Part shown: piece after piece, positions 1,996 to 50,000 of the stretch
Numbering within the stretch: the first letter of the stretch is position 1
How the letters are laid out: each line of letters opens with the position of its first letter
DNA from: Mimachlamys varia
Lineage: Eukaryota; Mollusca; Bivalvia; Pectinida; Pectinidae
Reading direction: 5' to 3'
DNA: 64,000 nucleotides
Assembly: GCA_947623455.1 (NCBI GenBank)
Contig: OX392527.1
Span: 32,108,201 to 32,172,200, forward strand
The notes under the pieces: model-generated
The model's database searches: none
What the model was told of the DNA's origin: nothing
The model's input: only the letters and a program-made list of their open reading frames with translations
Program-made: the position numbers and the translations under genes

Positions 1996-2122
1996 ATGGT
2001 ACAGAGGCCTGGGGTCAGACTGGTCCTCACTTGGCATCCTTCCAGCAACAGGTGGAATACCTGCTTACCTCCAGGGAACGCTCACAGCTGAAGAAGGCTC
2101 TTCAGATCTACGCTGAAAACAG
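1996..2122 (+). CDS. GRID2IP: Formin exon: harmonin-N-like domain, first half
   Basis: Acceptor TCTTTCCAG and donor CAG|GTAAGT bound 127 nt (enters phase 2, leaves phase 2). The translation contains FQQQVEYLLTSRERSQLKKA and then LQIYAENR. This is the helical pattern of the harmonin-N-like domains that sit next to the PDZ domains in delphilin. Its last ~49 nt reappear at 3715-3763 on the far side of the next minisatellite. Confidence 0.88.
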
Positions 2123-5100
2123 GTAAGTTAATAGAGGGGCAGAGAACAGGTAAGATATTAGAGGGGCAAAGACAAGATAAGATAAAAGAGGGGCAGAGAA
2201 CAAGTAAGATAATAGAGGGGCAGAGAACAGGTAAGATAATAGAGGGACAGAGAACAGGTAAGATAATAGAGAGGGCAGAGAACAGGTAAGATAATAAAGA
2301 GGGCAGAAACAGGTAAGATAATAGAGAGGGCAGAGAACATGTAAGATAATAGAGGGGCAGAGAACATGTAAGATAATAGAGGGGCAGAGAACATGTAAGA
2401 TAATAGAGGGACAGAGAACAGGTAAGATAATAGAGAGGGCAGAGAACAGGTAAGATAATAGAGGGACAGAGAACAGGTAAGATAATAGAGAGGGCAGAGA
2501 ACAGGTAAGATATTAGAGGGGCAGAGAACAGGTAAGATAATAAAGAGGGCAGAAACAGGTAAGATAATAGAGAGGTAGAGAACAGGTAAGATAATAGAGG
2601 GGCAGAGAACAGGTAAGATAGTAGAGGGGTAGAGAACAGGTAAGATAATAGAGAGGGACAGAGAACATGTAAGATAATAGAGGGACAGAGAACAGGTAAG
2701 ATAATAGAGAGGGACAGAGAACATGTAAGATAATAGAGGATCAGAGAACAGGTAAGATAATAGAGAGGGCAGAGAACAGGTAAGATAATAGAGAGGGACA
2801 GAGAACAGGTAAGATAATAGAGAGGGACAGAGAACAGGTAAGATAATAGAGAGGGACAGAGAACAGGTAAGATAATAGAGAGGGACAGAGAACAGGTAAG
2901 ATAATAGAGAGGGCAGTGAACAGGTAAGATAATAGTGGGGTAGAGAACAAGTAAGATAATAGAGTGGAAGAGAACAGGTAAGATAATAGAGGGACAGAGA
3001 ACAGGTAAGATAATAGAGAGGGCAGAGAACAGGTAAGATAATAGAGAGGGACAGAGAACAGGTAAGATAATAGAGAGGGACAGAGAACAGGTAAGATAAT
3101 AGAGAGGGACAGAGAACAGGTAAGATAATAGAGAGGGACAGAGAACAGGTAAGATAATAGAGAGGGACAGAGAACAGGTAAGATAATAGAGAGGGACAGA
3201 GAACAGGTAAGATAATAGAGGGACAGAGAACAGGTAAGATAATAGAGAGGGACAGAGAACAGGTAAGATAATAGAGGGACAGAGAACAGGTAAGATAATA
3301 GAGAGGGACAGAGAACAAGTAATATGTTAGAGGGGCAGAGAACAGGTAAGATAATAGAGAGGGACAGAGAACAGGTAAGATAATAGAGGGACAGAGAACA
3401 GGTAAGATAATAGAGGGACAGAGAACAGGTAAGATAATAGAGAGGGACAGAGAACAGGTAAGATAATAGAGAGGGACAGAGAACAGGTAAGATAATAGAG
3501 AGGGCAGCGAACAGGTAAGATAATAGAGGGGCAGAGAACAAGTAAGATAATAGAGGGGCAGAGAACAGGTAAGATTATAAAGGGGCAGAGAACAGGTAAG
3601 ATAATAGGGGGGCAGAGAACAGGAAAGATATATAATAGAGGGGCAGAGAATAGGTAAGATAATAGGGGGGCAGAGAACAGGAAAGACACATGATAGAGGG
3701 GCAGAGAACAGGAAGGGAATGCTCACAGCTGAAGAAGGCTCTCCAGATCTACGCAGAAAACAGGTAAGAATAAAATAGACTTAATTTTTAACACAACTTA
3801 TATATATTGTTGTGAACCTTTATGGTTAAATGCAGTCTGTAGAATTGCATCCAAACTGATGTAATGTTGCTGAATCTCCCGATTATATCATGGTCATGCA
3901 AAAGTTCTGAACAGATCATGCAGATGTGATATTAAATCTGATCAGGAGAATATTTGTAAAGATAATTATATGTTAGTTGATGGGCTACGTTTGCCTTGGA
4001 CATGATTTGGAGGAGCTTGAATACAAGCCTAAATTAATGGTCAAGGTCAAGAGGAATATGGGGTTGACCAGTCTAAGGTCAAGGTCACTTACGGAACCAG
4101 TCTTTGGTCAAGGTCACTTACTGAACCAGTCTAAGGTCAAGGTCACTTACTGAAACAGTCTAAGGTAAAGGTCACATACTGAAAATATAATTTCACCGTC
4201 CCACCAAATTGAATCACTCTAGCAGCTGTATCTCTTGTAAGATCTTCAAACATCTTTGCAGATATGTAAACATTGACATATTTTGCACAGGTTTACGTAT
4301 TGTTGTAATCAGTCAAAGGTCATTGTTGGTGAAAATAGAATTCCACCACTTAACCAACAGGAGGTTAGGATATGTGGACGTTTCTCATTTTCTCTACAAT
4401 GCCAGTCAAGGTATGATATCCAGCTATATCCTTATTACTATTCCTCCATGAGGAAGTCTGAACTATTTATCTACCTGTTGTTATCATCAACAGGAAAGTA
4501 GAGAACCTCATTCAGGACTTAGAGGTCATTCTGGACACGCCATCAAAGCAGACACTTTGGATCTACATCATTCCACTACTGGTAGCTGAGCACCAGGAGT
4601 ATGCCCGCCACCGACTCAATATACATCATGATGTTAAAGGTAGGTGTCACAGACTCAATATACATCATGATGTTAAAGGTAGATGTCACAGACACCACAT
4701 AATCATAAGACATACTCTGTAATTGTTATGTAAACCCTCCACAGACTCAAAATATTGAAAAGGTATGTTAAATATTTATCTGCATGCTGATATATTTGCA
4801 TAGATTTGATACAAATGAAATAAGCAAAAACAACTCCACTTTTACTGTTTCAACAATGATAATTATCTGAAATGTAATAATATCTGACAAAGACTCAAGA
4901 TTTATAAAAGTATTGAGAGAACTTACAGTAAACATACTGGACACATTCCATAATCTCAAAGGACTTCCTTAAATCACCTTAGCTGTTAATAGGATGTAAA
5001 ACACAAACCAAATCAGACTGCAAAGGTATGTATAGTCGTTAACTTGTCTGCTTGTCAAAGCTTTACACATCTACCATAGACTTGACATAAACTATGATGA

Positions 5101-8100
5101 CAAAGGTATGTATGTCAAATTGTATATCTCCAATGGATAGATATTTCCCACTGAAAATTACCTTTGTTTAATAAGAAATCCTTCTAAAATTCCAAAAATC
5201 TGTAATTATGCTGTAGTAGAAAACTACAAATGAAATACCTTCCCTGTGTTGTTACAATAATTCTTGCAATAGTATGTAAGACCAGTTGTTCAAAAGGCGA
5301 TTAGCTTAATCAGTGATTAGTGCAAATTTTAATTATCCTGTAACTTTAAAATGAAACCATAGATTTAGTTACAAGTTTGCAGATAGCAATATCTAATAGT
5401 GTCAATTTACAAAATGTTACCTTGACGTATATTGACAGAATTATTAAAGTTTGAAAAATATTATTAAATAGTGAGTAAGCTAATCACCTTTTGAACAACT
5501 GGACCCAGATGTGTAATGTATGTTTAAAATTGACTGTAGTTCTGTGTACTGATATATGTCTACTCTGTTTAATACATTTCAGGCCTGCCTCCTGGTAAGT
5601 GTGAATCTCTTGTCCGTACACAGACTGACCAAGTGGAGACCCAGTATAGCACTGAAGATGAATTTAGAATAGGTATCCCTTACAGTCCCCTTTCCATTCA
5701 CATGTCTGCATGTCACCAGTCGCTCTGTCCTCAAACTTATTTTGTAGGTGTACTGTACTCTTCTCCTGGAACTTCCTGTCACATGGTAGGTCTTCCATCT
5801 TGGAAGTATCCTGTAAGTTTCATTCCTAAGTTTCCTGTCCCTCAGTTGAAGTACTTCAATCTTACGTAAACCTATACTGTTACTCTGTACAGCTTCTATC
5901 TCCTCTGAACTTCCTGTTATTTAATGAATAAGTCGGTCCTACTTTTTAATTACTACTTCTCTCTATCAAATTGGTCCCCCAATCCTCCATGAAAATAATT
6001 CACAGACATCTAGTTTGTCGCCTCTCCTCCATACGCCTGCATGTATTCAAGGAGTATTTTATCTGTTCTCTGAAATTCTTTTCTATCTGTAAAACTCTCT
6101 CCTGTCTCCTAATTTTGCCTCTGAATGAAGAAACCATATTCAACCCGATAAGTGCACCTGTCTCTGTATAAAGCACATCCCTAACTTTTATTAGAGAAAG
6201 AGGATGGGTTTGCTAATTAAAACCTTAAATTAAGACCTTAAGAGTTCCTTGCCTTTAAATGATGTGCCGATACAACCTTGAATCTTTTAACCCAAGTCTC
6301 TGTTCCAGAGAAAGGAAATCAAACTGAATATCTAAGAATTCATTTCCAAATATTATGTGCATAAGGTTTATTAAGCAGACCTTTTCTCCTTTTCCCCCTC
6401 CTCTCCCTCCTGAACTATCTGTCATGCGGCAATGCCCTTGCTCCTTGAACTCACTTCTGCCCTTATATCGGAACTTCATACCACCCAGCTCAATAGGTTT
6501 GGCCCTCTATAGCTTCCTTTCACTCGTGTGTGTTTCCCTCCCTACACTTCCTCATCCTAAACTGCTTGCCTCCCATCTATCCTTAAATACAATTTCCTAC
6601 TATTCAACAAAATATTATATCTTAACTTGCTTAGCTGTCAACCCTCCCTCAAGGGGCAGGAGACTGAGTCATTTCGTCCAAAATTATCCATTGCCCCTTT
6701 AATTATTGAAACTCCCTCCAAATTTAACTCACACAAACTCAAAATCTACATCATTTTGTCAAATGATCTTTTTGTTTCTGCAGTATTGTATGTATGTAAT
6801 GATGATAATGGGTGTTACCCTTAACCAAATTAATGCTTTTTGAAATGATAATTGTTATGAGAAAGATAAATTTAGCAAAACAGTTAAGTCTTAATTTATA
6901 CACTTTCTCCCTAATTGAAAATGTGGAATGAGGGAGATCTTCTTCATTGTAGGTTTCAAGTGTTGACACCAATAGCCTTGACAAATCTCAGTTGCTTAAT
7001 GTTCTTGTGACCATTAGCTATTACGCATCTGCCTTCTGTATTTCTCTTTTTCTGGATAAAAAAAGACTTGTGACATGCAAGTGTTCTGTCAGTCAAAATG
7101 CACCTATTGTAAAATGTGTGTATACCGACATGCTTAAGTTTTATTCATCATTTGTGCTTGATATTGCTAAACAAATTATCAATATATAACTATAATAGAT
7201 TTGGGCTGTTGATATTTGGCCTCCCAATGCACCAGTCCAAAGGGGATGCAACCCTGTTTTTACATTTAGGATGTATATATAATTTTTTTTTTTAATCTGA
7301 CACGCATTTCTTGTTTGAACTGTACATGTTTAATGACTTTTTATTGATAGATAGTAATATTGATACAAAATAATAAATCTACATTTGAACGTTGTCATCT
7401 CAAACTCTTACAAATCCAAGACCCTGTTTCATTAATTCAAAGTATTTCATAAAGTCCATTCCAAAACTTCATATCAAACATTCAAACTTAATTAACTCCA
7501 ATTATCGGATGACTCAAGGTTTTGCCATGGTTCTATATCCACTTTTGAGGTAACAAGGTTCAGCTTTACATACCATGCCAGTTTTACATGAGGATAAGCA
7601 TAATTTGTTAAAACATTGTCAGTATCACAGCTGCTTTAAGTGACGTTAGTGCCACCTGTAATTATTGCTTACACCTGTATTATCACCTGCCTATTTGTCC
7701 TCCAGTGGGTGTTGCAGCTGCTGCCCTCAGAAGAGGAAGGGAATACTTGGTATGTAAAAACCTTGCTGTCATTTATGATTTTGGTGTTCATTTCATTGTT
7801 CAAAAAGAACTGTGAATATTATTAGTACTATTGCATATACCCGGTATATGATGGTTCAACTGATTCAAGTTATCTGTAAATTAATATAAAAAAACACAAA
7901 AATAATCCAAGAATATCTGCAAATTAGATTCAGTATCCTGTAAAAAGTGTCAACAGATGCACTATGTATTGTATAATGTTTTCTTAAGCTAAACAACATT
8001 TAGATAAAATGCTTCAGTCTGTCCAATGACAAAGAAAAATACTGATTATAAGGTGCATTTCTACTTTTTGTTCACTACATTTTTCTTGGTGAACAACAAA

Positions 8101-11100
8101 ACCGATAAATCTTTCGTCATGAATCAATACCATCCCCTGTCACTGAATTTTAGTGTAAGACATATATGGATCAATAGAATTGTGTATTTAACACTAAATC
8201 TTAAGTCACGCCTGCCACTGAATTTTAGTGTAACACAAATGTGAATCAACATTCAACTTTTAACACAACAGAGTTCTTACTCCTCTGACGACGACATGCC
8301 TGACCGAACACAAAAGCCAGGCGTGAAGCGGGCCAGAGGTCGCCTCTGGAAAAAGATGCACCCTGGGTATGACCTCAGTGGAAGAGATGGTAGGTGTAAA
8401 TATGACAGTTTATCTCAGAATAAAAAAAATGATACAGATTATGTGTATAAGTAAGTGTACTTTGTTTGCTGTTAAATATATTAGAACACTGGTTATATGT
8501 TTTTTGATGACAGGAGAGTGGAAAAACAGTTATTGATTAGATACAATTTTGTAATAATTGTAAAACCTAGATTATAGGGCCATCATTGGAATACCTTCGA
8601 ATTCATGAGATGTTAAAGTTTGCAAATTTTGGTGCCTTCACAAATTTATGAAAGCTAAAAACCTTGCTAATATTAAAAATTATACATCATATAACCTTCA
8701 TCAGGGACCAAGAACATAGACATGGCTCTCATGAAGGAACTGGAAGAAACTCGGCGAGCCGTAGAGGAGGCAAAGAAAATATTCCAGGCAGGACACAAGA
8801 TGGATGCAGATTTAACAGGTTTCTCAAACTATTTAGTGATTTAGATCTCGAATGACTTACTTTCCAAATAACTTATATATATATTCATTTTTCACATTCT
8901 AAGCTTTTTAGCTTGAAACAAATTTGACAAGATTAATGGCCTTAACTTGTATTCAGTTTATATTATTCACATCTGAAAAGACTGCAGTAGTAGTTATATT
9001 CTTCAGGTTCCATCAAAATTGATTGTTTTAATGCTTATACCTATTATAATGGTTTTTTTCTAGACTCTGATGATGACACAGATCTGAAAGCTAAGAAATA
9101 CGTAACTGTAATACCTATCAGTAGCAATGAATATACAGGAAAAAATCTAACAGATGAAAAATCTGGACAAGGACAGTCACAGCAAAGGAAAAGAAATGGA
9201 GTATCGCCTGTTTCCAGCAAAAACAGAAATGGAGTACAATTCCCACCGGAGATTGTGTTCAGTTCAACTTGTTCAGATAGTGACAATGATGTTGAAGCTG
9301 ATGTTGAAATAGACAGGTCCAGATTCTCCATCAAATCTGGAGATTCATTTAACCGCCGTGCTATGACTGCGTTGAAAGAGCTTGATGCTGCCATGGCTGC
9401 AGAGGTGTCTGACCTTGATGCAACAAGTACTATTGGTCAGGATTATCTCAAGGTCACTGGTGGATCATCGCCATTGTTGTATCAACAGGGGAAACAAGAT
9501 TCCCAGATTCCACCTCCACCTCCTCCAGGTAAGGTGACTAGTAGACCAACAGGTGGGCCTGCTTCCCAAAGTCCACCTCCACCACCCCTAGGTCCCGAGT
9601 AGACCAACAGGTGGGCCTGCTTCCCAAAGTCCACCTCCACCACCCCTAGGTCCCGAGTAGACCAACAGGGGGGCCAGCTTCCCAAAGTCCACCTCCACCT
9701 CCTCCAGGTAATGTCCCGAGTAGACCAACAGGGGGGGGGGGTAGCTTCCCAAAGTCCACCTCCACCTCCTCAAGGTAAGGTGACTAGTAGACCAACAGGG
9801 GGGGGGGGCAGCTTCCCAAAGTCCACCTCTACTACCCCTAGGTCCCGAGAAGACCATCAGGGGGGCCAGCTTCCCAAAGTCCACCTCCACCACCCCTAGG
9901 TCCCGAGTAGACCAGCAGGAGGGCCTGCTTCCCAAAGTCCACCTCCACCACCTCCAGGTAAGGTGCCTAGTAGACCAGCAGGGGGGCCAGCTTCCCAAAG
10001 TCCACCTCCACCACCCCTAGGTCCCGAGTAGACCATCAGGGGGGGGGGGACCAGCTTCCCAAAGTCCACCTCCACCACCCCTAGGTCCCGAGTAGACCAG
10101 CAGGAGGGCTTGCTTCCCCAAGTCCATCTCCACCTCCCCTAGGTCCCGAGTAGACCATCAGGGGGGGGGGGGGCAGCTTCCCAAAGTCCACCTCCACCAC
10201 CCCTAGGTCCCGAGTAGACCAACAGGGGGGGCCAGCTTCCCAAAGTCCACCTCCACCTCCTCCAGGTAAGGTGACTAGTAGACCAACAGGGGGGGGGGGG
10301 GGGGCAGCTTCCCAAAGTCCACCTCCACCTCCTCCAGGTAAGGTCCCGAGTAGACCAACAGGACGGGGGGCAGCTTCCCAAAGTCCACCTCCACCTCCTC
10401 CAGGTAAGGTGACTAGTAGACCAACAGGGGGGGGGGGGGGGGGCAGCTTCCCAAAGTCCACCTCTACTACCCCTAGGTCCCGAGAAGACCATCAGGGGGG
10501 CCAGCTTCCCAAAGTCCACCTTCACCACCCCTAGGTCCCGAGTAGACCAACAGGGGGGCAGCTTCCCAAAGTCCACCTCCACCTCCTCCGGGTAAGGTGA
10601 CTAGTAGACCAACAGGGGGGCCAGCTTCCCAAAGTCCACCTCCACCATCCCTAGGTCCCGAGTAGACCAGCAGGAGGGCCTGCTTCCCAAAGTCCACCTC
10701 CACCACCTCCAGGTAAGGTGACTAGTAGACCAGCAGGGGGGCCAGCTTCCCAAAGTCCACCTCCAACACCCCTAGGTCCCGAGTAGACCATCAGGGGGGG
10801 GGGGCCAGCTTCCCAAAGTCTACCTCCACCACCCCTAGGTCCCGAGTAGACCATCAGGGGGGGGGGGCAGCTTCCCAAAGTCCACCTCCACCACCCCTAG
10901 GTCCCGAGTAGACCAGCAGGAGGGCCTGCTTCCCAAAGTCCACCTCCACCACCTCCAGGTAAGGTGACTAGTAGACCAGCAGGGGGGCCAGCTTCCCAAA
11001 GTCCACCTCCACCACCCCTAGGTCCCGAGTAGACCAACAGGGGGGCCAGCTTCCCAAAGTCCACCTCCACCATCCCTAGGTCCCGAGTAGACCAGCAGGA

Positions 11101-14100
11101 GGGCCTGCTTCCCAAAGTCCACCTCCACCACATCCAGGTAAGGTGACTAGTAGACCAGCAGGGGGGCCAGCTTCCCAAAGTCCACCTCCACCACCCCTAG
11201 GTCCCGAGTAGACCATCAGGGGGGGGGGGGGGGGCCAGCTTCCCAAAGTCTACCTCCACCACCCCTAGGTCCCGAGTAGACCATCAAGGGGGGGGGGCAG
11301 CTTCCCAAAGTCCACCTCCACCACCCCTAGGTCCCGAGTAGACCAGCAGGAGGGCCTGCTTCCCAAAGTCCACCTCCACCACCTCCAGGTAAGGTGACTA
11401 GTAGACCAGCAGGGGGGCCAGCTTCCCAAAGTCCACCTCCACCACCCCTAGGTCCCGAGTAGACCAACAGGGGGGCCAGCTTCCCAAAGTCCACCTCCAC
11501 CATCCCTAGGTCCCGAGTAGACCAGCAGGAGGGCCTGCTTCCCAAAGTCCACCTCCACCACATCCAGGTAAGGTGACTAGTAGACCAGCAGGGGGGCCAG
11601 CTTCCCAAAGTCCACCTCCACCACCCCTAGGTCCCGAGTAGACCATCAGGGGGGGGGGGGGGGCCAGCTTCCCAAAGTCTACCTCCACCACCCCTAGGTC
11701 CCGAGTAGACCATCAAGGGGGGGGGGCAGCTTCCCAAAGTCCACCTCCACCACCCCTAGGTCCCGAGTAGACCAGCAGGAGGGCCTGCTTCCCAAAGTCC
11801 ACCTCCACCACCTCCAGGTAAGGTGACTAGTAGACCAGCAGGGGGGCCAGCTTCCCAAAGTCCACCTCCACCACCCCTAGGTCCCGAGTAGACCATCAGG
11901 GGGGGGGGGCAGCTTCCCAAAGTCCACCTCCACCACCCCTAGGTCCCGAGTAGACCAGCAGGAGGGCCTGCTTCCCAAAGTCTACCTCCACCACCTCCAG
12001 GTAAGGTGACTAGTAGACCAGCAGGGGGGCCAGCTTCCCAAAGTCCACCTCCACCACCCCTAGGTCCCGAGTAGACCAACAGGGGGGCCAGCTTCCCAAA
12101 GTCCACCTTCACCTCCTCCAGGTAATGTCCCGAGTAGACCAACAGGGGGGGGGGGGGGCAGCTTCCCAAAGTCCACCTCCACCTCCTCCAGGTAAGGTGA
12201 CTAGTAGACCAACAGGGGGGGGGCAGCTTCCCAAAGTCCACCTCTACTACCCCTAGGTCCCGAGAAGACCATCAGGGGGGCCAGCTTCCCAAAGTCCACC
12301 TCCACCACCCCTAGGTCCCGAGTAGACCAGCAGGAGGGCCTGCTTCCCAAAGTCCACCTCCACCACCTCCAGGTAAGGTGCCTAGTAGACCAGCAGGGGG
12401 GCCAGCTTCCCAAAGTCCACCTCAACCACCCCTAGGTCCCGAGTAGACCATCAGGGGGGGGGGGGACCAGCTTCCCAAAGTCCACCTCCACCACCCCTAG
12501 GTCCCGAGTAGACCAGCAGGAGGGCTTGCTTCCCCAAGTCCATCTCCACCTCCCCTAGGTCCCGAGTAGACCATCAGGGGGGGGGGGGCAGCTTCCCAAA
12601 GTCCACCTCCACCACCCCTAGGTCCCGAGTAGACCAACAGGGGGGGCCAGCTTCCCAAAGTCCACCTCCACCTCCTCCAGGTAAGGTCCCGAGTAGACCA
12701 ACAGGACGGGGGGCAGCTTCCCAAAGTCCACCTCCACCTCCTCCAGGTAAGGTGACTAGTAGACCAACAGGGGGGGGCAGCTTCCCAAAGTCCACCTCTA
12801 CTACCCCTAGGTCCCGAGAAGACCATCAGGGGGGCCAGCTTCCCAAAGTCCACCTTCACCACCCCTAGGTCCCGAGTAGACCAACAGGGGGGCAGCTTCC
12901 CAAAGTCCACCTCCACCTCCTCCGGGTAAGGTGACTAGTAGACCAACAGGGGGGCCAGCTTCCCAAAGTCCACCTCCACCATCCCTAGGTCCCGAGTAGA
13001 CCAGCAGGAGGGCCTGCTTCCCAAAGTCCACCTCCACCACCTCCAGGTAAGGTGACTAGTAGACCAGCAGGGGGGCCAGCTTCCCAAAGTCCACCTCCAC
13101 CACCCCTAGGTCCCGAGTAGACCATCAGGGGGGGGGGGCCAGCTTCCCAAAGTCTACCTCCACCACCCCTAGGTCCCGAGTAGACCATCAGGGGGGGGGG
13201 GCAGCTTCCCAAAGTCCACCTCCACCACCCCTAGGTCCCGAGTAGACCAGCAGGAGGGCCTGCTTCCCAAAGTCCACCTCCACCACCTCCAGGTAAGGTG
13301 ACTAGTAGACCAGCAGGGGGGCCAGCTTCCCAAAGTCCACCTCAACCACCCCTAGGTCCTGAGTAGACCAGCAGGGGGGGCAGCTTCCCAAAGTCCACCT
13401 CCACCTCCTCCAGGTAAGGTGACTAGTAGACCAACAGGGGGGCCAGCTTCCCAAAGTCCACCTCCACCACCCCTAGGTCCTAAGTAGACCAGCAGGGGGG
13501 GGGGGGGGGAGGTGGGGGGGGGGCAGCTTCCCAAAGTCCACCTCTACTACCCCTAGGTCCCGAGTACATCAACAGGAGTGCCAGCTTCCCCAAGTCCATC
13601 TCCACCTCCCCTAGGTCCCGAGTAGACCATCAGGGGGGGGGGCAGCTTCCCAAAGTCCAGCTCCACCACCCCTAGGTCCCGAGTAGACCAGCAGGAGGGC
13701 CTGCTTCCCAAAGTCCACCTCCACCACCTCCAGGTAAGGTGACTAGTAGACCAGCAGGGGGGCCAGCTTCCCAAAGTCCACCTCCACCACCCCTAGGTCC
13801 CGAGTAGACCAGCAGGGGGGCCAGCTTCCCAAAGTCCACCTCCACCTCCCCTAGGTCCCGAGTAGACCAACAAGGGGGGCAGCTTCCCAAAGTCCATCTC
13901 CACCTCCTCCAGGTAAGGTGACTAGTAGACCAGCAGGGGGGCCAGCTTCCCAAAGTCCACCTCCACCACCCCTAGGTCCTGAGTAGACCAACAAGGGGGG
14001 CAGCTTCCCAAAGTCCACCTCCACCTCGTCCAGGTAAGGTGACTAGTAGACCAGCAGGGGGGCCAGCTTCCCAAAGTCCACCTCCACCATCCCTAGGTCC

Positions 14101-17100
14101 CGAGTAGACCAGCAGGAGGGCCTGCTTCCCAAAGTCCACCTCCACCACCTCCAGGTAAGGTGACTAGTAGACCAGCAGGGGGGCCAGCTTCCCAAAGTCC
14201 ACCTCCACCACCCCTAGGTCCCGAGTAGACCATCAGGGGGGGGGGGGGGGGCCAGCTTCCCAAAGTCTACCTCCACCACCCCTAGGTCCCGAGTAGACCA
14301 TCAGGGGGGGGGGCAGCTTCCCAAAGTCCACCTCCACCACCCCTAGGTCCCGAGTACATCAACAGGAGTGCCAGCTTCCCCAAGTCCATCTCCACCTCCC
14401 CTAGGTCCCGAGTAGACCATCAGGGGGGGGGGGCAGCTTCCCAAAGTCCACCTCCACCACCCCTAGGTCCCGAGTAGACCAGCAGGAGGGCCTGCTTCCC
14501 AAAGTCCACCTCCACCACCTCCAGGTAAGGTGACTTGTAGACCAGCAGGGGGGCCAGCTTCCCAAAGTCCACCTCCACCACCCCTAGGTCCTGAGTAGAC
14601 CAGCAGGGGGGGCAGCTTCCCAAAGTCCACCTCCACCTCCTCCAGGTAAGGTGACTAGTAGACCAACAGGGGGGCCAGCTTCCCAAAGTCCACCTCCACC
14701 ACCCCTAGGTCCCGAGTAGACCAGCAGGGGGGGGGGGAGGTGGGGGGGGGGCAGCTTCCCAAAGTCCACCTCTACTACCCCTAGGTCCCGAGTACATCAA
14801 CAGGAGTGCCAGCTTCCCCAAGTCCATCTCCACCTCCCCTAGGTCCCGAGTAGACCATCAGGGGGGGGGGGCAGCTTCCCAAAGTCCACCTCCACCACCC
14901 CTAGGTCCCGAGTAGACCAGCAGGAGGGCCTGCTTCCCAAAGTCCACCTCCACCACCTCCAGGTAAGGTGACTAGTAGACCAGCAGGGGGGCCAGCTTCC
15001 CAAAGTCCACCTCCACCACCCCTAGGTCCTGAGTAGACCAACAAGGGGGGCAGCTTCCCAAAGTCCACCTCCACCACCTCCAGGTAAGGTGACTAGTAGA
15101 CCAGCAGGGGGGCCAGCTTCCCAAAGTCCACCTCTACTACCCCTAGGTCCCGAGTACATCAACAGGAGTGCCAGCTTCCCCAAGTCCATCTCCACCTCCC
15201 CTAGGTCCCGAGTAGACCATCAGGGGGGGGCAGCTTCCCAAAGTCCACCTCCACCACCCCTAGGTCCCGAGTAGACCAGCAGGAGGGCCTGCTTCCCAAA
15301 GTCCACCTCCACCACCTCCAGGTAAGGTGACTAGTAGACCAGCAGGGGGGCCAGCTTCCCAAAGTCCACCTCCACCACCCCTAGGTCCTGAGTAGACCAG
15401 CAGGGGGGGCAGCTTCCCAAAGTCCACCTCCACCTCCTCCAGGTAAGGTGACTAGTAGACCAACAGGGGGGCAGCTTCCCAAAGTCCACCTCTACTACCC
15501 CTAGGTCCCGAGTACATCAACAGGAGTGCCAGCTTCCCCAAGTCCATCTCCACCTCCCCTAGGTCCCGAGTAGACCATCAGGGGGGGGGGGCAGCTTCCC
15601 AAAGTCCACCTCCACCACCCCTAGGTCCCGAGTAGACCAGCAGGAGGGCCTGCTTCCCAAAGTCCACCTCCACCACCTCCAGGTAAGGTGACTAGTAGAC
15701 CAGCAGGGGGGCCAGCTTCCCAAAGTCCACCTCCACCTCCCCTAGGTCCCGAGTAGACCAACAAGGGGGGCAGCTTCCCAAAGTCCATCTCCACCTCCTC
15801 CAGGTAAGGTGACTAGTAGACCAGCAGGGGGGCCAGCTTCCCAAAGTCCACCTCCACCACCCCTAGGTCCTGAGTAGACCAACAAGGGGGGCAGCTTCCC
15901 AAAGTCCACCTCCACCTCGTCCAGGTAAGGTGACTAGTAGACCAGCAGGGGGGCCAGCTTCCCAAAGTCCACCTCCACCTCCCCTAGGTCCCGAGTAGAC
16001 CAACAAGGGGGGCAGCTTCCCAAAGTCCATCTCCACCTCCTCCAGGTAAGGTGACTAGTAGACCAGCAGGGGGGCCAGCTTCCCAAAGTCCACCTCTACT
16101 ACCCCTAGGTCCCGAGAAGACCATCAGGGGGGCCAGCTTCCCAAAGTCCACCTCCACCACCCCTAGGTCCCGAGTAGACCAACAGGGGGGCAGCTTCCCA
16201 AAGTCCACCTCCACCTCCTCCGGGTAAGGTGACTAGTAGACCAACAGGGGGGCCAGCTTCCCAAAGTCCACCTCCACCATCCCTAGGTCCCGAGTAGACC
16301 AGCAGGAGGGCCTGCTTCCCAAAGTCCACCTCCACCACCTCCAGGTAAGGTGACTAGTAGACCAGCAGGGGGGCCAGCTTCCCAAAGTCCACCTCCACCA
16401 CCCCTAGGTCCCGAGTAGACCATCAGGGGGGGGGGGGGGGGGCCAGCTTCCCAAAGTCTACCTCCACCACCCCTAGGTCCCGAGTAGACCAGCAGGAGGG
16501 CCTGCTTCCCAAAGTCCACCTCCACCACCTCCAGGTAAGGTGACTAGTAGACCAGCAGGGGGGCCAGCTTCCCAAAGTCCACCTCTACTACCCCTAGGTC
16601 CCGAGTACATCAACAGGAGTGCCAGCTTCCCCAAGTCCATCTCCACCTACCCTAGGTCCCGAGTAGACCATCAGGGGGGGGGGCAGCTTCCCAAAGTCCA
16701 CCTCCACCACCCCTAGGTCCCGAGTAGACCAGCAGGAGGGCCTGCTTCCCAAAGTCCACCTCCACCACCTCCAGGTAAGGTGACTAGTAGACCAGCAGGG
16801 GGGCCAGCTTCCCAAAGTCCACCTCCACCACCCCTAGGTCCTGAGTAGACCAGCAGGGGGGGCAGCTTCCCAAAGTCCACCTCCACCTCCTCCAGGTAAG
16901 GTGACTAGTAGACCAACAGGGGGGCCAGTTTCCCAAAGTCCACCTCCACCACCCCTAGGTCCCGAGTAGACCAGCAGGGGGGGGGGGGGGAGGTGGGGGG
17001 GGGCAGCTTCCCAAAGTCCACCTCTACTACCCCTAGGTCCCGAGTACATCAACAGGAGTGCCAGCTTCCCCAAGTCCATCTCCACCTCCCCTAGGTCCCG

Positions 17101-20100
17101 AGTAGACCATCAGGGGGGGGGGGGCAGCTTCCCAAAGTCCACCTCCACCACCCCTAGGTCCCGAGTAGACCAGCAGGAGGGCCTGCTTCCCAAAGTCCAC
17201 CTCCACCACCTCCAGGTAAGGTGACTAGTAGACTAGCAGGGGGGCCAGCTTCCCAAAGTCCACCTCCACCACCCCTAGGTCCCGAGTAGACCAGCAGGGG
17301 GGCCAGCTTCCCAAAGTCCACCTCCACCTCCCCTAGGTCCCGAGTAGACCAACAAGGGGGGCAGCTTCCCAAAGTCCATCTCCACCTCCTCCAGGTAAGG
17401 TGACTAGTAGACCAGCAGGGGGGCCAGCTTCCCAAAGTCCACCTCCACCACCCCTAGGTCCTGAGTAGACCAACAAGGGGGGCAGCTTCCCAAAGTCCAC
17501 CTCCACCTCGTCCAGGTAAGGTGACTAGTAGACCAGCAGGGGGGCCAGCTTCCCAAAGTCCACCTCCACCTCCCCTAGGTCCCGAGTAGACCAACAAGGG
17601 GGGCAGCTTCCCAAAGTCTATCTCCACCTCCTCCAGGTAAGGTGACTAGTAGACCAGCAGGGGGGCCAGCTTCCCAAAGTCCACCTCCACCACCCCTAGG
17701 TCCTGAGTAGACCAACAAGGGGGGCAGCTTCCCAAAGTCCACCTCCACCTCGTCCAGGTAAGGTCCCGAGTAGACCAACAGGGGGGCCAGCTTCCCAAAG
17801 TCCACCTCCACCTCCTCCAGGTAAGGTGACTAGTAGACCAACAGGGGGGCCAGCTTCCCAAAGTCCACCTCCACCACCCCTAGGTCCCGAGTAGACCAAC
17901 AGGGGGGCTAGCTTCCCAAAGTCCACCTCCACCTCCTCCAGGTAAGGTGACTAGTAGACCAACAAGGGGGGCAGCTTCCCAAAGTCCACCTCCACCTCCT
18001 CCAGGTAAGGTCCCAAGTAGACCAACAGGGGGGCCAGCTTCCCAAAGTCCACCTCCACCTCCTCCAGGTAAGGTGACTAGTAGACCAACAGGGGGGCAGC
18101 TTCCCAAAGTCCACCTCCACCTCCTCCAGGTAAGGTCCCGAGTAGACCAACAGGGGGGCCAGCTTCCCAAAGTCCACCTCCACCTCCTCCAGGTAAGGTG
18201 ACTAGTAGACCAACAGGGGGGCAGCTTCCCAAAGTCCACCTCCACCTCCTCCAGGTAAGGTCCCGAGTAGACCAACAAGGGGGGGCAGCTTACTAAAGTC
18301 CACCTCCACAACCCTAGGTCCCAAGTAGACCAACTGTTTTTCATGGTCTGCACCCCTCCCCCTCCTCTTCCCACAAATAAAAGCAAATCAAAGTTGGAAG
18401 CTAGCTAGACCGCTTGTAGACTTTCACAGTGCCCAAGCCTTGTATGACACTTGTATGACCATTTGTAGAATGCCACAGACCCAAAGTATTATTTGACCAA
18501 TACTTTTCCTCTAACATCTATGACCACTAGTAGACTGCCTCTGTAACAAATCATTAGATGACAAGTTCATTCTCCAAAACTTCTATGTCACACAAGGACG
18601 CATGCTATAAATTGTCAAAAACCAGAAATTGCCATCAACCAATCTTCAGAGGCTGAGATAATCTTTATGTATATATACATTTGTCACTTGACGTATGGAA
18701 GCCTAAATTTCCAACTTTTTCTCAAAAACCTTTGAATTTCCATGTTTTCAATAGAATTTGCAAAAAGCTTCCACAGCAATACTCAAGTCAAGATTTTTGT
18801 TACATGTTCATTAAATGTTTTTTATGTGACATAAGAAAAATACATAGTATTTGGTTTGCCAAAGCACAACAACAAGCAACGTTGCATACATAACAACTGA
18901 GGTGACTCGAAGTCCATGTTAAGAGATATAACTTTTGACAATGAAATGATAAGATACTGAGCATTACCAAATACTAAAGCATTAAATTCTGGTATAAATT
19001 TCAGTGGCACCCCCACCCCCACCTCTGCCACCACCTCCTCCTCCTCCTCCCCCAGGCATTCAGAATGGCACCCCAAGTCACCAGTCTGCACCTGGTGGCA
19101 AAATGAATGTCAAGAGGATCAACTGGGACAAACTGGACCAGAAAAAAGTGGAGAATACGATATGGGAACAGGTAGGTGTTAAATAACATGTATCCCTGGG
19201 CGTGCATCTTATGATTCATGTCTGTCGTATCCCAACATGGATTAACAGCACTGTGAGCGGAGGCATGATACACCCGTCGTACCCTATCGGAAGTACATGT
19301 ATAATGGTATGAAAACACAAAAAAAGTTCTGACATTTTCTACATTATGTCCCAAATTGCATCAGATACGAAGTTCCAAAGGGCCATAACTCTATTAAATA
19401 TTGTCGAATTAAATTGTCATTCAGGAAAACACAACTTCATGTCATGATGATAAAGCCTAGCAAATTTGAAAGATATTAATTGGAAACTGTACATGTAGGA
19501 GAAAATCTCCGGACAAATAACAGTTTACGACAGAAATGCATTGTCTACATAATGCCTATATCTAACTATGAAATGCTGTTATGTGAAAAGTTGAAATAAC
19601 TTAACAAAACCCTTAATTTATGTTAAATATTATAGCTTTTCGAAGTACCATACCAAATTTTAGAGGAATTGAAAAAAAAACACAAAAAAGTTCTGACGTT
19701 TTCTACACAATATATTTCTGTCCTGCGTTAAACCTGTGACTAACTAACTAGGAGGTAGGCCTATTGGTGGTTGCCTATTCGAGCATGCATTGCTACTGTT
19801 GCAGGATATGGCAGCCATGTTTCTGCCTCCCAAAATATGAGAAGATTTTAATTCTCATAAAATTTGTGACATTGTGGACTCCAAACAACTTAATAACTGA
19901 CTGATGTTGAAGAAGATTGTAGTCTGTAATCTAATAAGTTATCTTGTATATAAAATGTACATAAAGTGGAAGCTTATTATATGAAGAAATACTCATTTTG
20001 ATATCTATATACATAGGTTAGTGAAGTTGGATCTTGATCTATCAAGACCATTTAGCAAAGGCTAGATAAACAGGAAAAAGAGCCAAAGCTGGTAATTAAA

Positions 20101-36750: not shown

Positions 36751-36839
36751 CAATATACTATAGTTACCAAGGCTTATGATCAATAAAGACATATTGGATT
36801 ATTGCATATGAATTCTGTTGTATTATTTTGTATTCAAGA

Positions 36840-37420
36840 GAATTAGTTTTAATTCATCAGATGAGCTATTTCAATGGCCCTTCGTGCGTGGTTCGTCTTC
36901 CGTCTATCTGTAAAGATTTTCTGTTATCGTTATCTCTCAACTACTGGCCGAGGTGGATCGTTCTGAAACATCACATGTACGTTCCCCTTGGTCCCTAGTT
37001 GTGCATTGTCCTATTTTCGGTATGATATTAGAAAAAGACAATATTTCTGAAAGGTAGCTATCTTTGATATTGACGGAAATTCTTTCTTACCACTATTTCT
37101 TGCCTATTTATAGTACTGGTGGATCATTCTGAAATTTCAAGTGTAGGATCCCATGGTCCCTAGTTGTGAATTGTTTCGGTACGGTACTGATTCTTAAATA
37201 TAATGGCAAACGGGTGACCGTATTGGATTTCGGCAGTAATAGTTAATTATCGATATTTCTTTAAACATTTCTGTAACTGGGAGAATATTTCTAAAACTTA
37301 TGATAGTGTAGGTTTCCCTTGGTCCTTTTGGCATGTATCCTTGAAATGATATGGCTGACGGGCGACCAACTTGAGTTTCATAACATTCGATAAATCAATA
37401 TAGAAGAACATCGGATGTCG
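36840..37420. repeat. Dispersed repeat family with GGTCCCTAGTTG segments
   Basis: Three related segments contain a version of CTTGGTCCCTAGTTGTGCAT followed by TTTCGGT or similar and 'gaccat...ttggatttc'. Related text recurs at about 40680-40960 and 54780-55570. These look like old copies of an abundant repeat; no protein is recognisable. Confidence 0.55.
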
Positions 37421-42727: not shown

Positions 42728-44018
42728 CGGTTTTTCACAAAAATACTAAAGCTTCAATGTTTTAAATCACAACTGTATTAAATTCAAAATTTCATAATTG
42801 TTTTACAACGGCGTTTATTACTTTTTTTAAATTAAAAACAATTCATATACAAGTGTACATACGTATTTTAAAGAATTTGTATATTATGAGTGCAATTTAC
42901 ATGTCTTATCTAATATCATCGCAATGATCACTTAGGGGATTTTTATCCATATTTTCCCTGAAAATCTCTTAAAAATCGAAAATGATATTACTTTATACAG
43001 AAAAATCTCAATTGATATTTTGCTGATCCCATAAAATCCCTCAAATTCTCCCATAGGTTTTAAGAGTCGGAATTATCCCCCGAGTATGTATACTCAATAA
43101 GTGTACTCATATTATGTCATAAGCATTTTTTGGCCTATAGAATTGACAGCGAGTATAACTGTGTCAGGAGAAATAGTTAGCATTGTACTGGTAGCACTAC
43201 AAATGATTTCATTCTGTGTTTTCACATTGACGTTTGGGACACTGATCTGGCTGTAGATTGACATATATTTCTTAACTGAAGGAAATTCTGAACATTTTCA
43301 TAGAAGGTTGTTCCTCAACTCAAGAGTAGTCACATAAAATTCTGAAAAGTTCAGCTGGTTTTAACTACCTTTGTATACTGTAATAAAGTTTTACCGGACG
43401 TGTATAAAAACTTGAAAGCAACAATTAGACAAACAAATGAGAATGACTGATATACAAATACACTAGGGATGAGGTCATGGTTGTCAGTATTTACAAAATC
43501 TGTACTGTGATTTAAAGGTTAAAAATAAATCTCCACCACAATCTTAAATTGATGATTGAGAGGAAAAACAAGTACAAAACGGACAATTTGTTGAACCTTT
43601 TAATGGCGTACATTAAAGACAGGAAATGTTTCTGTTAATAACTTCAGCATGTTTCGAACACTTTATATCATTATGTCTGCTGCATTACTTGGATGCTTGA
43701 ATATTTCATAATATACACAACACTATCATCTGCAAATAAGTTACTGAAAAGGAGAACATTACTTGTTTTTTTTTACCATAATAGATTTTATAACCATTTA
43801 TTTTCACTTCAAATAGAACTTGCTATTGGAATTTTCGTGAACCTCGAAGAAAATGGCCCCATACTAAAGAATTCTGAATGTCACAATGATATACAAAAGT
43901 ATTACAGTGTGTGTTGAGGCAGCCATAGAGACCGGAAGTCCCGTTTGTTTCTGTGTGTACCGAGACAACTAATGGTATACCACTTTGTAGCACTATAAAT
44001 GTTTGATGATTATGACGG
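42728..44018. other. Convergent intergenic region between secreted gene and PSMD12
   Basis: 3' ends of both genes face each other here. Candidate polyadenylation signals are AATAAA at 43382-43387 (plus) and AATAAA on the minus strand at 43802-43797, about 215 bp after the PSMD12 stop. Nothing else is recognisable. Confidence 0.55.
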
Positions 44019-47000
44019 TCAATGGAGCTTGTGTACCATCTCCTCCTTGGTGATGAGGTGATTGGTCTTGTTGACAAGCTGCATCAGTGTGGTGATGTTA
44101 TGGGACCAGTCATTGAGAATGTCACTGGGGTCCTTCTGGTGGGTGAAATTCACTATACCTTCCAGGCGATCCATCTTGGCTTGTATAGTCTTGTTCACAA
44201 CAAGATTGGACAAGAATTCTTCAGATTCCTAAAAGTAGACATAACATTCTGAAGTCCTTCCTGTGTTTTATATAACTATATAATTTTTAATCATTAATAG
44301 TAGTTCGAACTACTTGACCTTACCTCAGAGTATGCTTGTCAGATGTATATGTTTCTTATGGAAAACTTGATTCTCATCTTTTGTGATTTTATTTAGCCAA
44401 AAATGTCTGTATTTACAATAAATCCCTACATGACAGTTACATCAATAATAACTATTTTTCAATTTAGAATACTAGTCTCATGCCTCACAAGTTGTAAAGC
44501 TTGATATTCAATGGTAATTGTAATCACACATGTCAATATCTTACCGCCTCAGACTGGTCCAGAAGGTCAGCGATTCTCTTGGTCCTCACACGGGTGTAGT
44601 ATTTGGCCATCACTCGAATATTCTAAAATAAACCATTAAACAATTACCTTTTATAGATTCATTTTTATACATCTTAAAAGTATTTCAAGCTTAAAATGTA
44701 TGCATCAATATCAATCTAATATTCAACAAAAAACATTTTAATGACAAACAGGGGTAAAGGTCAACATGTTGATTAGCAGTTCATTTTGTAAATTCTACAT
44801 AATGAAAGCTGATCATACCACAAGAGGTTGAATGAACAACGATGAACATTTTTGGACTGACAGCCCTGAAACAACAGACACTTTTGAGCTTTATATTTTC
44901 CTGATGAAGATGGCCGTTACTCACATGTTCTACAACCCTATTTTTTAGGTCTGCCCAGCGTTTTGCTCCCCCTTCCAGTTTTGTGTTGAACACATGGGTA
45001 GCAGGACTACTCGTGGAACCAAACTTAAGCTCGCTCTCGTATGTCAGACACAACTGCTTCCATGTGATCAGCTCTGACGTAGTGAAACAATTTAGTAGCT
45101 CTCTGTAGAGTAAAATATGATGTTCCAGTGTATTTGATTAAAGATGAAGGTGGTGCAAAAACCATTTCTGACAGCAAATAAATGAGGATTTATGTACATT
45201 ACATTTGTATTAAAAATGTTTAGTGTACTTGCTGGTAAAGTCTGATTTCACACTTTCTGCTATTGGTATTAGGGTATTTCTTCCAGATTTCTGTTACACA
45301 CTTACTGGTATTAGGGTTTCTGTCACACACTAACTGGTATTAGGGTTTCTGTTACACACTTACTGGTATTAGGGTTTCTGTTACACACTTACTGGTATTA
45401 GGGTTTCTGTTACACACTGACTGGTATTAGGGTTTCTGTTACACACTGACTGGTATTAGGGTTTCTGTTACACACTGACTGGTATTAGGGTTTCTGTTAC
45501 ACACTTACTGGTATTAGGGTTTCTGTTACACACTTACTGGTATTAGGGTTTCTGTTACACACTTACTGGTATTTGGGTTTCTGTTACACACTTACTGGTA
45601 TTTGGGTTTCTGTTACACACTTACTGGTATTAGGGTTTCTGTTACACACTGACTGGTATTAGGGCTTCTGTTACACACTTACTGGTATTAGGGTTTCTGT
45701 TACACACTTACTGGTATTAGGGTTTCTGTTACACACTTACTGGTATTTGGGTTTCTGTTACACACTTACTGGTATTAGGGTTTCTGTTACACACTTACTG
45801 GTATTAGGGTTTCTGTTACACACTTACTGGTATTAGGGTTTCTGTTACACACTGACTGGTATTAGGGTTTCTGTTACACACTTACTGGTATTAGGGTTTC
45901 TGTTACACACTGACTGGTATTAGGGTTTCTATTACACACTTACTGGTATTTGGGTATTTCTTCCAGATTTCTGTCCTCCTTGACTCTGTGTATGAAGTCT
46001 GACTGCTCATTATCGTAGGGTGCCAGTATCACATATAGGACTACATAACGCAGGGCCTGCAGGTCAAAGGTCAAAAACCATTATTCATTGTACCGCACAA
46101 CATCCTAGCCAATAATCAAACTGTATGCATCAACCAAAGGGATAAAGAACCATGTTTACCCTTGAAACATGTTTTTTGTAAGTGAAGTTTATAAGGAAAT
46201 ATTGATGATCTTTTCAAATTTTCTAGCAGGATCCAAACTCTACACTGCAAGAATCATTTTAGTGCAAAACAATATGTAATGGAAATCAAAAAGAACGCTT
46301 AGTTTCTAACAATTTTAGGAAAAATCTATAAATTTACTTCAAACCCAACATTCTTTTGTTAGTGCATAAATTTATCAATATCAAAGAATTACATGTACGT
46401 ATATCAAAATTTGTTAAACTAATTTCAGTTTTTGAAAATTTGGGAAAATTAGGCACTTTTTGGCTAGAGGAAACAGAATGAATTCGGCAGTAAAATTGAG
46501 CAAAAAAGTGACACTGTTAGCAACAACATCAAGTCAAATTGAAGATTTTTCAGCAAATCAAATGACAATATTAAATCAGATAGTGATTGGCAAAATGTTT
46601 TTCAGTATATATGATTGCATAGCAATTGCATGACTATGAATTAAACATTCATGTCCTATTGATTTATGCCTTGGTGTAAGCGTGTTGTAATGTTTTACCT
46701 CTCTCATTTTGTCTTTGTTTTCTTTGATCTCTGGTGTGTCATATACAGCTTTGTAATGTTTACAGATAGCTAGGTAGGATCCCTCATGTTCATCAAGCTC
46801 AATCATCAACTGGTAATATTTCAACTTTAGCTCCTGAAAAGAAAACGCATTCAAGTAATTCAGTATCAATAACATGTCATTTCATAAGTATACAAGTCTG
46901 TCTTATCAATATAAACACTGAACAAGTAACATATTGATAATACCAACTAGATAGATATATGTTTTACATGTTGTTACACAAACACAATCTAAATCTAAGT

Positions 47001-50000
47001 GTTACATCATGATATTGAGATACACTCAATGTACAATCAAAATACAAAATAAAAAACCTTTGTGTTACACATTAATACAATAATAATAAAAATCTCAGTA
47101 CTACACACTGGTGTAACAGTATAGAGTGTTACATGTCGGTAATACAGTTCAATTCAGGTGCAAATGAACCTACGGTTGTTCCAGCTTCCTCGAAGAACTT
47201 TGAGCTGATCTTTTTGCTGATGATCTGTGTCCTGATGTAGTCCTTCTTAGCTAGACACAATCTCATCTGCTCTAGAATAAACTCCACCTTCTCTTTCTTC
47301 TCCATTGACCCAAATGTCTCCACCTAATATAGAACATAGAATCAAAAAGGGTCAATATTTCATATAAGATCAACCATTTCGATTGATATGTCTGCCCTGT
47401 TTTGATCATCACTGCAAATGTGAAAATAGTTGGTCTAACAGTGCACTTACAGTTTCAGAGAAACTAACTAAGATGCTGACAAAGTCAATGGACCATGAAA
47501 TTAGGCAGCATCGTGGATTTGATGCATAAATGGACATACTGCCTAAAATGCATCAATGGTCCAAGTTTGGTTGGCCTAAAACTCACTTCACCGCAGAAAC
47601 TTAATGCTGACACTCTTGAATGGAAAATCAAAATCTTATTCTCGCCTCTACCTCTTCATGGTGGCAAGACAAAAACTGTACCTGCTATTCAAAAATGCTC
47701 TATACATGGAAATATTTTAGACATTTTGCAATATTCTAATGAGATTATATGTTTAAATATTTCTAAATATTTGAAATGCTGTTCTGCTTTTAACCAACAT
47801 AACATAGCCTTGCTTGATTAATGTACTGATAATACTGACCTGTAGCTCCTGAAGTATGTCCGCGGCCTCCGTTACCTTTCCACTGTCTTCCTTTATTTTA
47901 GCAAGAGTTCTGGTGAGTCTTGCACGTTCAATTTCCACATAGATCTGCACGAAAAAAAACAACATTAGCAATGACAGCATATAAAGGATTTAATGAAATA
48001 TTATCAACGATTTTCAACTGCATATTGATAAAATTTATCAAAATCTTGTACACTGTAGCTCAATAATACAATCTGCATGACAGTTTGCGACGTTTGCCAC
48101 TAGTCAGTCCTATGCCATGACTAGTAAATTTTGGTTTGGACTAGTGGAAATTCCTTGAATTTCAATATATTTGATATAATAAACACTGCATTTTGCTTGT
48201 CCGGACTAGTGCTTGAAAATGTTACTGTCACAGACTCAACTGGCATGAGAATAGCAACTTTTATAGAAAAATCTTGGTATGAGAAAAATATCAAACTTGG
48301 CATGCGTGAATTGGCAGAAATTCATATTTAACTATTTCCTTTAAGGCCAAAGTGATGAAGGTTGAAAAATCTGTAATAGAGTAGATGAGACCAGATTTTA
48401 GCATGACACATTCTGCTCTAATTACAGAAACTCTACTACAAAATTGTGACAAAGTATGAGATATTTAACAGAAAAATGCGATATGTGATGATGGACGAGC
48501 CAATATTATTCAATATTAATTGTAAGTGGACATCAGGTCACATTCTGAAAGATAACACAAATTACCTAATGTAATTGTAGATGACAGACAACAGTCACAG
48601 ACAAAAGTGATGCATTAGGGACAAGGCCAAATATCTCACAAACTGATAAAATTCCAGTATGTAACACTCTGCCTTCAAAAGATGTACTTGAATATCGGTA
48701 ACTATATGTGAAAGATTACATGAGAATGTTACCCAGGATACAAACTGACAGTGTATTGCTATAATCTTTGCTGTGGATAATCTTTAATGTATGCATTTCT
48801 GAAATAGCATCCGACAACTTCCTTTTCCAGCTGTGACTGTCCTACTTACTTTTCCAGCTGTGACTGTCCTCAGTGTATCAATCAACTTGAGTTTGACTTC
48901 CATGTTGCCAGCTGGAGTCTTTTCAACATAGGTATAGGCTTCCTGGATCATCTTTGTAACCGACTGAAACCATTTTCAAAGGAATTAAATTACTGAAATA
49001 GAAGTACATGAAGAGACAAAGTTGCACCATCATTCTTGTCTTAAACGAAAAAAAAAATAAAGAATTCATAGCACAGGTGTGTAAACCTTATATTAGTAAT
49101 GTAAAAGAAAACATTGTCATATCTACCAAGTTTTATACCTATCAGTTAAGATAGTAAATATAAAAGCAATATTAATATTTGCATAACTTACACTGTACAT
49201 TTAAATGGAAAAAAGAAAAGGGACATATCTTCCAAAGATATGGGCCTTAATCAACATTTACATCCGATTCATTGCCTATTTAAAAGCAAAGGGTTAAATA
49301 GACAGTAAGGCCCTTATATTATTCATTGCACTTTTTGATCAGCTTTACATATTTCTGGCCTTTTTAACATATGCATACATATTATTAAATTTCCTTCTAC
49401 AAAATTAACAGATTTTAAATGAGCTTATTACCAAAACATTTGTACTCTTATCAAGAAAATGTATATATAATATAAATCTGTGACAGAGAAATTCAAGACT
49501 TTTGTATATATCTCAGCAGTTACCTTAGACCTGGATATACATGTACTTACCTGTTTTATCTGTCCTCGTTTCTTTGTTAGTACGACAATATTTTCATTCA
49601 GTGCATCCCAATTTTTGTTTTCAAAACAGAGGCGAACCACAGTCACCAGGACTCTACTCGTGGAATGAGTATCAGCTCCCTACAAAATAGACAAAATATT
49701 TAGTCTAATCCACCTGTAGGCAAACATGGGGGTATCTTCCAGCATTTGGTAGTCATGAAGAGGCTACAGCTATTTAAAATACAACATTCCAACAATTGGC
49801 CCAGTCTAGTTCACATACATTGTACTGTCACACTATGATATAGTGATTACACATTTCATAGTAAAAAGCCCTTTGTGTCAAAACATGAGAATTAAAAGAC
49901 TGGAACAAATCCATCTATGCAAGATTCTGCTGTGTTGATCACGTACAGGATATAAAGTGAATAGTAGATCTAGATCTATAGCAAAGATAGAACATACAAT

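Follow-up and report, generated by a model that had tools for sequence, protein, structure and literature searches.

The window examined here, a stretch of 64,000 nucleotides of the Mimachlamys varia genome (C1:32108201-32172200), contains two unrelated genes, delphilin (GRID2IP) on the forward strand and PSMD12 on the reverse strand, in which minisatellites lie across exon-intron junctions. For the analysis, 100 kb of flanking sequence was added on each side of the window, and positions are given in window coordinates unless stated otherwise. The forward-strand gene was recognized as delphilin by a Pfam FH2 domain (8.7e-92) together with a harmonin N-terminal domain and by its closest relatives, those of Ylistrum balloti (90%) and Mizuhopecten yessoensis (86%), which ruled out a formin of the DAAM or FMNL type. 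The complete gene comprises 30 exons, which join into an uninterrupted open frame of 1294 codons. PSMD12, whose 11 exons include one followed by a GC donor, is 98% identical to its counterpart from Argopecten irradians over the entire length. The two scallop delphilins align without a break across every array-bearing junction of the window, which at exon 4494-4639 holds with small exons included in the delphilin model; the alignment of PSMD12 with A. irradians is unbroken at exons 4/5 and 8/9, and at the array-bearing junctions of delphilin the hand-made model was reproduced by an automatic splice search. Because of this continuous alignment to scallop proteins and the agreement of the splice search, the array-bearing exon borders are real as far as protein evidence goes. 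The annotated delphilins of two other scallop genera have no repeat residues inserted at the array junctions, in a comparison made on the proteins.

Tandem Repeats Finder (TRF) returned 36 rows for the window, and 15 separate arrays with a period of at least 18 bp lie inside the two gene bodies. The eleven arrays reported in the preliminary description, the units of which were said to join exon-edge bases to the splice site, are all present: for nine the TRF coordinates themselves cover a junction, and for the other two (exons ending at 9528 and 24943) the overlap is seen by homology alone. The strictly spanned donors are 2122/2123, 4639/4640, 20308/20309, 27152/27153 and 31321/31322 in delphilin and 45943/45944 (exon 8) and 48849/48850 (exon 4) in PSMD12, and the strictly spanned acceptors are 24815/24816 and 33102/33103. 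Both 5' and 3' boundaries are thus hit, acceptors by the arrays starting at 23787 and 32918 and donors by all others.

In delphilin (all on the forward strand), the donor of exon 1996-2122, which encodes a harmonin-N-like part, seeds the array at 2118-3712, with a 27 bp unit (AACAG|GTAAGATAATAGAGGGGCAGAG) in about 57 copies. Its outermost copy (3714-3763) contains the tail of the exon over 50 bp (47/50 identical), continues with GTAAG and is likely to be a relic of a longer founder duplication. The donor of exon 4494-4639 lies in a 39 bp unit repeated 2.2 times (4609-4693). An array of about 9 kb with units of 58-121 bp (9509-18334) belongs to the donor of exon 9064-9528 at the end of FH1; TRF starts it at 9540, 11 bp beyond the donor, and reports it in two parts, with 64 and 57 copies of a 58 bp unit. 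The donor is altered in the 58-bp consensus (CCCTAGGTCCCG) and is kept as CCAG|GTAAGG in other units, and in an internal copy 39 of the final 46 bp of the exon are matched before the sequence continues with GTAAGG. Exon 20230-20308 is followed by a donor array of 41-43 bp units in about 65 copies (20293-23021). Exon 24816-24943 is flanked on both sides: by an acceptor array (23787-24823; 94 bp, 11 copies), upstream of which an outermost relic copy at 23742-23759 retains 17 bp of the exon head, and by a donor-derived array (24959-25561; 52 bp, 11 copies). TRF starts the latter about 16 bp beyond the donor; a diverged copy of the junction, with CT in place of the donor GT, is contained in its units and has a local score of 45 as compared to at most 19 for the other forward-strand donors of the gene. 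The donor of exon 27066-27152 is repeated in a 30 bp unit about 126 times (27135-30922), the units keeping an open frame over long stretches. Arrays about 70% similar to this one are found at C2:61758011, C6:19915244 and C10:48253272, for which chance and common descent are both possible. A donor array of 34 bp units in 26 copies (31294-32193) accompanies exon 31192-31321, and an acceptor array of three 64 bp copies (32918-33116) accompanies exon 33103-33155.

In PSMD12 (reverse strand), the donor of exon 8 (45944-46056) is spanned by an array of 23 copies of 29 bp (45288-45955), with an outermost relic copy of the exon tail at 45264-45294 (31 bp, 30/31), and that of exon 4 (48850-48963) by a duplication of 27 bp in two copies, 96% alike (48817-48870), the second of which has GG in place of GT. 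Only two to three copies are present in three of the eleven arrays (4609, 48817 and 32918). The units measure 27-94 bp and the copies number 2 to about 126, as compared to 27-94 bp and 2 to about 145 in the preliminary description. A twelfth junction case came to light at the window edge: array 1-1185 (forward strand, 43 bp unit by TRF) forms the distal end of a 5.7-kb array beginning 4.6 kb upstream at the donor CATGG|GTAAAA (window -4557) of a delphilin exon ending in ...NHPQHILM, and its unit, CAACACATCCTCATGG|GTAGAAC, carries the tail of that exon. A 324-bp repeat of 6.3 copies is nested within this 43-bp donor array (97429-99465, window+100000 coordinates). Three gene-internal repeats found by TRF span no junction and serve as counter-examples, namely an intronic array (4067-4183), a two-copy repeat within an intron, 46 bp short of an acceptor (26466-26556), and a weak AT-rich repeat in PSMD12 intron 2 (50336-50386). 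Five further arrays (35343, 36617, 58019, 62716 and 63508) lie outside the gene bodies and were left out of the chance test. Long arrays are difficult to assemble, which could raise the suspicion of an assembly artefact; however, the copies are not identical (TRF matches of 78-97%), the units are specific to their junctions and the array edges join unique exon or intron sequence, so that we give this explanation practically no credence.

The placement of the arrays was compared with a null model in which one unit per array was placed randomly in the gene, with arrays collapsed and wholly exonic units forbidden. In the window, with array 1-1185 scored as not spanning, 2.0 of the 15 arrays are expected to span a junction, compared to nine that do so strictly (P=2.3e-5) and eleven by homology (P=1.2e-7); by gene, strict spanning amounts to 7/12 in delphilin (P=5.0e-4) and 2/3 in PSMD12 (P=0.018). 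The claim of anchoring in two unrelated genes therefore holds beyond chance within the window. Over the entire delphilin and PSMD12 genes, 11/22 arrays span strictly and 13/22 by homology, as compared to 3.1 expected (P=4.1e-5 and 5.4e-7, respectively). It had also been stated that most gene-internal arrays are of this kind, which is true of the window (12/15 with array 1-1185 included) but weaker for the full gene pair. Donors are preferred, since 11 of 39 donors as compared to 2 of 39 acceptors carry an array (P=0.013; 9 versus 2 by strict overlap, P=0.047). Among the two-copy repeats of the gene bodies, two of three cross donors (P=0.04), and because both of these recent duplications, 4609 and 48817, do so, there are hints that the donor bias is already present at the birth of an array.

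The simplest explanation would be that of plain tolerance: duplications arise evenly, exonic ones are purged, intronic and junction-crossing ones survive, and short ancestral introns make junctions frequent targets. Such tolerance fits the fact that one intact splice site remains after a duplication, as the preliminary description had suggested, but it is insufficient alone for the observed excess, as the null model, with wholly exonic units forbidden and introns array-collapsed, still predicts just 2.0/15 and 3.1/22. Furthermore, even duplication predicts no donor bias, contrary to what was observed, and we therefore regard plain tolerance as an unlikely sole cause.

Variation among the copies was analyzed in seven donor arrays with unit lengths of 43, 33, 27, 43, 30, 34 and 29 bp, of which three are multiples of 3. 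In most of them the exon and intron parts of the unit vary similarly, the widest gap, in the 20293 array, being 0.979 versus 0.923. Conservation of the nine-base splice core does not exceed that of other stretches of the unit (P=0.38). The GT is intact in all copies of three arrays (126/126 in the 27135 array, 26/26 and 23/23), while in a fourth, of about 57 copies, 57 have the G and 55 the T; the 9-kb array and the 24959 array have consensus units from which the donor is lost. Since the exon and intron parts vary alike, the splice core is not preserved and four of the seven unit lengths are not multiples of 3, the array copies look passive, without a job in splicing. Selection for such a job, whether as spare donors, as U1 sinks against early polyadenylation or in regulated exon extension, had been among the causes proposed at the outset. 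It would accord with the unbroken GT series of the 27135 array and the long open frame of its 30-bp units, but the splice core, the unit lengths and the two lost consensus donors speak against it, as does the lack of inserted repeat residues in the delphilins of the two other scallop genera (proteins only), and a splicing role consequently went unsupported and appears improbable.

The outer ends of three arrays bear on how the arrays were founded. The outer copy contains more exon sequence than the unit in the copies at 3714-3763 (50 versus 5 bp), 45264-45294 (31 versus 11 bp) and, on the acceptor side, 23742-23759 (17 versus 8 bp). This would be expected if the founder duplication had been longer and a shorter derivative of it had expanded, with the outer copy escaping the expansion.

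Genome-wide counts were made on the 975-Mb assembly. Counted over both strands, there are 30,635 perfect donor nonamers (CAGGTAAGT) and 5,463 copies of the reversed motif; triple copies at array-like spacing begin at 6,986 places for the nonamer as compared to 205 for the reversed motif. The share of occurrences in triples is 22.8% for the nonamer and 3.8% for the control, figures that count every array copy and are hence non-independent. Separate loci were counted by eye in the first 100 places for the donor and for the control: array loci made up 6 of 38 donor loci (first 4.17 Mb of C1) and 1 of 84 control loci (first 20.4 Mb; Fisher P=0.0037), or 2 of 84 if a long-spaced group is scored as an array (Fisher P=0.011), and array locus density differed between nonamer and control with P=1.4e-4. 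In the first 10 Mb of C1, nine separate triple-donor loci were found. The preliminary description would have been contradicted by array starts without an excess near splice junctions, for which the donor motif in arrays is the nearest stand-in, and this does show an excess; against its other objection, unreal exon borders, stand the proteins of other scallops. The 5' sides of all 12 array loci among the matches listed for triples and nonamers were examined for an open frame ending at the donor of the first copy. Such a frame had clear homology at three loci, to DNAH9 (dynein axonemal heavy chain 9; 3.4e-48), CUB (5.3e-6) and DSL (6.7e-6), and weak homology at two, to the first propeller of IFT140 (1.5e-4, below Pfam's cut-off) and to a sodium-dependent multivitamin transporter (0.0018); three loci had a frame only, and homology searches with those of the three that were searched gave nothing convincing. 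Because some donor-motif arrays elsewhere begin at exons with protein homology, the junction pattern is not peculiar to one gene, although a third of the sampled donor-motif arrays could not be linked to an exon. In the local 264 kb with the two genes, a strong donor is present in 11 of 80 units as compared to a shuffled mean of 5.1 (P=0.01), the units (at least 2.8 copies, at most 200 bp) being drawn from 116 merged arrays with a single threshold of our own choice.

These counts could also be read as the work of the motif itself, in that strong donor-like sequences, as U1 targets, would seed arrays wherever they are transcribed and exon ends would merely be their commonest site. A case in point is the 63508 array, the units of which contain GGAG|GTAAGTG and for which no exon was identified. 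However, several arrays of the two genes are built on the weaker donors GTAATT, GTTGGT and GTCTGT and two on acceptors, and starts without a visible exon may be untranslated or unrecognised exons; we consider a purely motif-driven origin rather improbable. The 63508 array itself (63508-64000, running on to about 66091; units of 19-77 bp) is possibly another donor array.

Taken together, it appears more likely than not that the arrays are minisatellites of the type called mirages in amphioxus, which arise from junction-crossing duplications with a preference for donors, are tolerated as intron and expand passively. What was observed directly is their anatomy, a gene model that stays in frame with the exon-proximal junction, the near-neutral variation of the copies, the three longer outer copies and the clustering of the donor motif genome-wide. 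Following this, we propose that a short tandem duplication lands across an exon-intron junction, more often at the donor, that the exon-proximal copy would stay spliced whereas further copies would turn into intron and hence be tolerated, and that the repeat would grow inside the array, presumably by slippage or unequal exchange. A derivative shorter than the founder unit might come to dominate some arrays, with the longer form surviving in the outermost copy. The founder excess at donors might stem from a mutational bias linked to transcription or to U1, with polymerase pausing, U1-bound nascent RNA and R-loops as conceivable candidates. Of the three causes offered in the preliminary description, a junction-targeted mutational process acting foremost on donors is therefore the one that fits best, albeit on indirect evidence.

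Several results weigh against this explanation. The upstream half of delphilin, which is fresh sequence, has donor-spanning arrays in only two of eight cases (array 1-1185, included here, and a 33-bp unit at donor AAAAG|GTTGGT) as compared to 1.3 expected (P=0.40), just as plain tolerance would have it, and with array 1-1185 and the nested 324-bp array removed, one of six spans as compared to 0.8 expected (P=0.61). Because this half shows no significant excess, the window is a favourable sample. In the 264 kb without the two genes, a strong donor was found in 7 of 63 units as compared to 4.0 when shuffled (P=0.086). The genome-wide control consisted of the reversed motif alone, unmatched for lying in genes, and no coding exon was found at the start of 4 of the 12 donor-motif arrays examined, which would suit seeding by the motif. 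In the seven donor arrays the GT pair alone is slightly better conserved than other columns (P=0.037), a result unpredicted by plain neutrality and in line with a splicing role. Finally, ten arrays contain exon-like copies, but only three of them show a longer outer copy, and the copy of the 20293 array with most exon sequence, 27 bp, lies inside the array at 21624-21650.

Tandem repeats across a splice junction have been encountered in other animals. In humans, the variable number tandem repeat of CBS is a repeat of about 31 bp across the donor junction of exon 13 and intron 13, and is a single locus, whereas the scallop arrays occupy many junctions. The preliminary description held the arrays to be an undescribed class, but such repeats were already known from amphioxus: the 'mirages' of Adh3 are tandem repeats across 5' or 3' exon-intron boundaries, the globin genes BflGb6 and BflGb9 and the troponin C gene also carry them, and PGBD5 has similar repeats (PMC3087553; PMC3902484). 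According to the accessible text of these reports, mirages contain AG/GT in many copies, are unstable in length and reportedly leave splicing undisturbed (PMC3087553; PMC3902484). The scallop minisatellites resemble them in spanning 5' or 3' boundaries and in having AG/GT in many copies, but they differ in the bivalve host and in size, with as many as about 126 copies or a length of 9 kb as compared to the 3-6 units given for BflGb6. Normal splicing is reported for amphioxus; in the scallop the open delphilin model and protein continuity are indirect signs of it. Beyond what the available portions of the amphioxus papers describe, the scallop adds a measured donor bias, a genome-wide excess of donor-motif arrays and longer outer exon copies in three arrays. 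The amphioxus authors proposed that introns are born by AG|GT duplication (PMC3087553), and the scallop arrays might accordingly be young introns derived from AG|GT tandem duplication (Rogers model). Intact AG|GT donor copies inside the arrays are in line with this, but the array-bearing introns end in acceptors that lie outside any donor array, and recent intron birth is thus very hard to credit here.

Human internal tandem repeats of about 30 bp in segmental duplications alter gene structure, some of them at exon-intron boundaries (PMC2812944). In the part of that study available, the boundary repeats are associated with recent segmental duplication and with altered exons or new introns, in contrast to the scallop exons, which match those of other scallops. 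The sections seen of reports on earthworm metallothionein (PMC12783039) and on placozoan repeats (PMC2871265) concern intronic or general minisatellites and describe none across a splice site. Literature searches of incomplete coverage found no junction-spanning minisatellites in bivalves, molluscs or scallops. In the predicted delphilin of Mytilus edulis, however, the ortholog of exon 33103-33155 ends in VLQVSQIKVLQVSQIKVLQ, which may be the read-through by a gene finder of a 24-bp donor array, judging from the predicted sequence. This case is known from the protein only and concerns another junction of delphilin than the scallop arrays; because it reads like array read-through, other bivalves may share junction arrays. 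A peptide-repeat scan of related proteins gave a junction case in M. edulis delphilin only, the repeats of three others being untied to junctions; eight entries, M. edulis included, were read gapped, and the matches of the other seven were discounted as gap artefacts, so that the result applies to the ungapped proteins and M. edulis.

New are the mollusc host (a new phylum within the searches made), the scale, the donor bias and the first frequency numbers. A further-reaching proposal, which we put forward tentatively and hold to be possible but doubtful at present, is that the 5' splice sites of scallops are a principal birthplace of minisatellites through duplication tied to transcription or U1, with about 1/8 to 1/3 of donors carrying an array. 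This rough estimate derives from 4.17 Mb in which 6 array loci compare to about 15 isolated CAGGTAAGT sites in excess of background, with exon homology for only 2 of the 6, and from the 11/39 donors of the two genes. By extrapolation, the scallop genome probably contains hundreds of cases with two to more than 100 copies, not all of them linked to exons. If donors are duplication hotspots, intron growth, the birth of minisatellites and some intron gain would share one measurable cause, and the question can be reduced to a count in any annotated mollusc genome. For annotation, it should be kept in mind that a gene finder can mistake an array for an exon extension, as perhaps happened in M. edulis delphilin.

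Two minor observations concern the gene models. The GC donor of PSMD12 is that of exon 2 (50617-50677, reverse strand; ACG|GCAAGTG) and is supported by the A. irradians protein. In delphilin, exon 3 (5583-5672) has an internal donor, CCTG|GTAAGT, which would lead to the shorter GLPPVGV form of M. yessoensis and is possibly used as an alternative donor.

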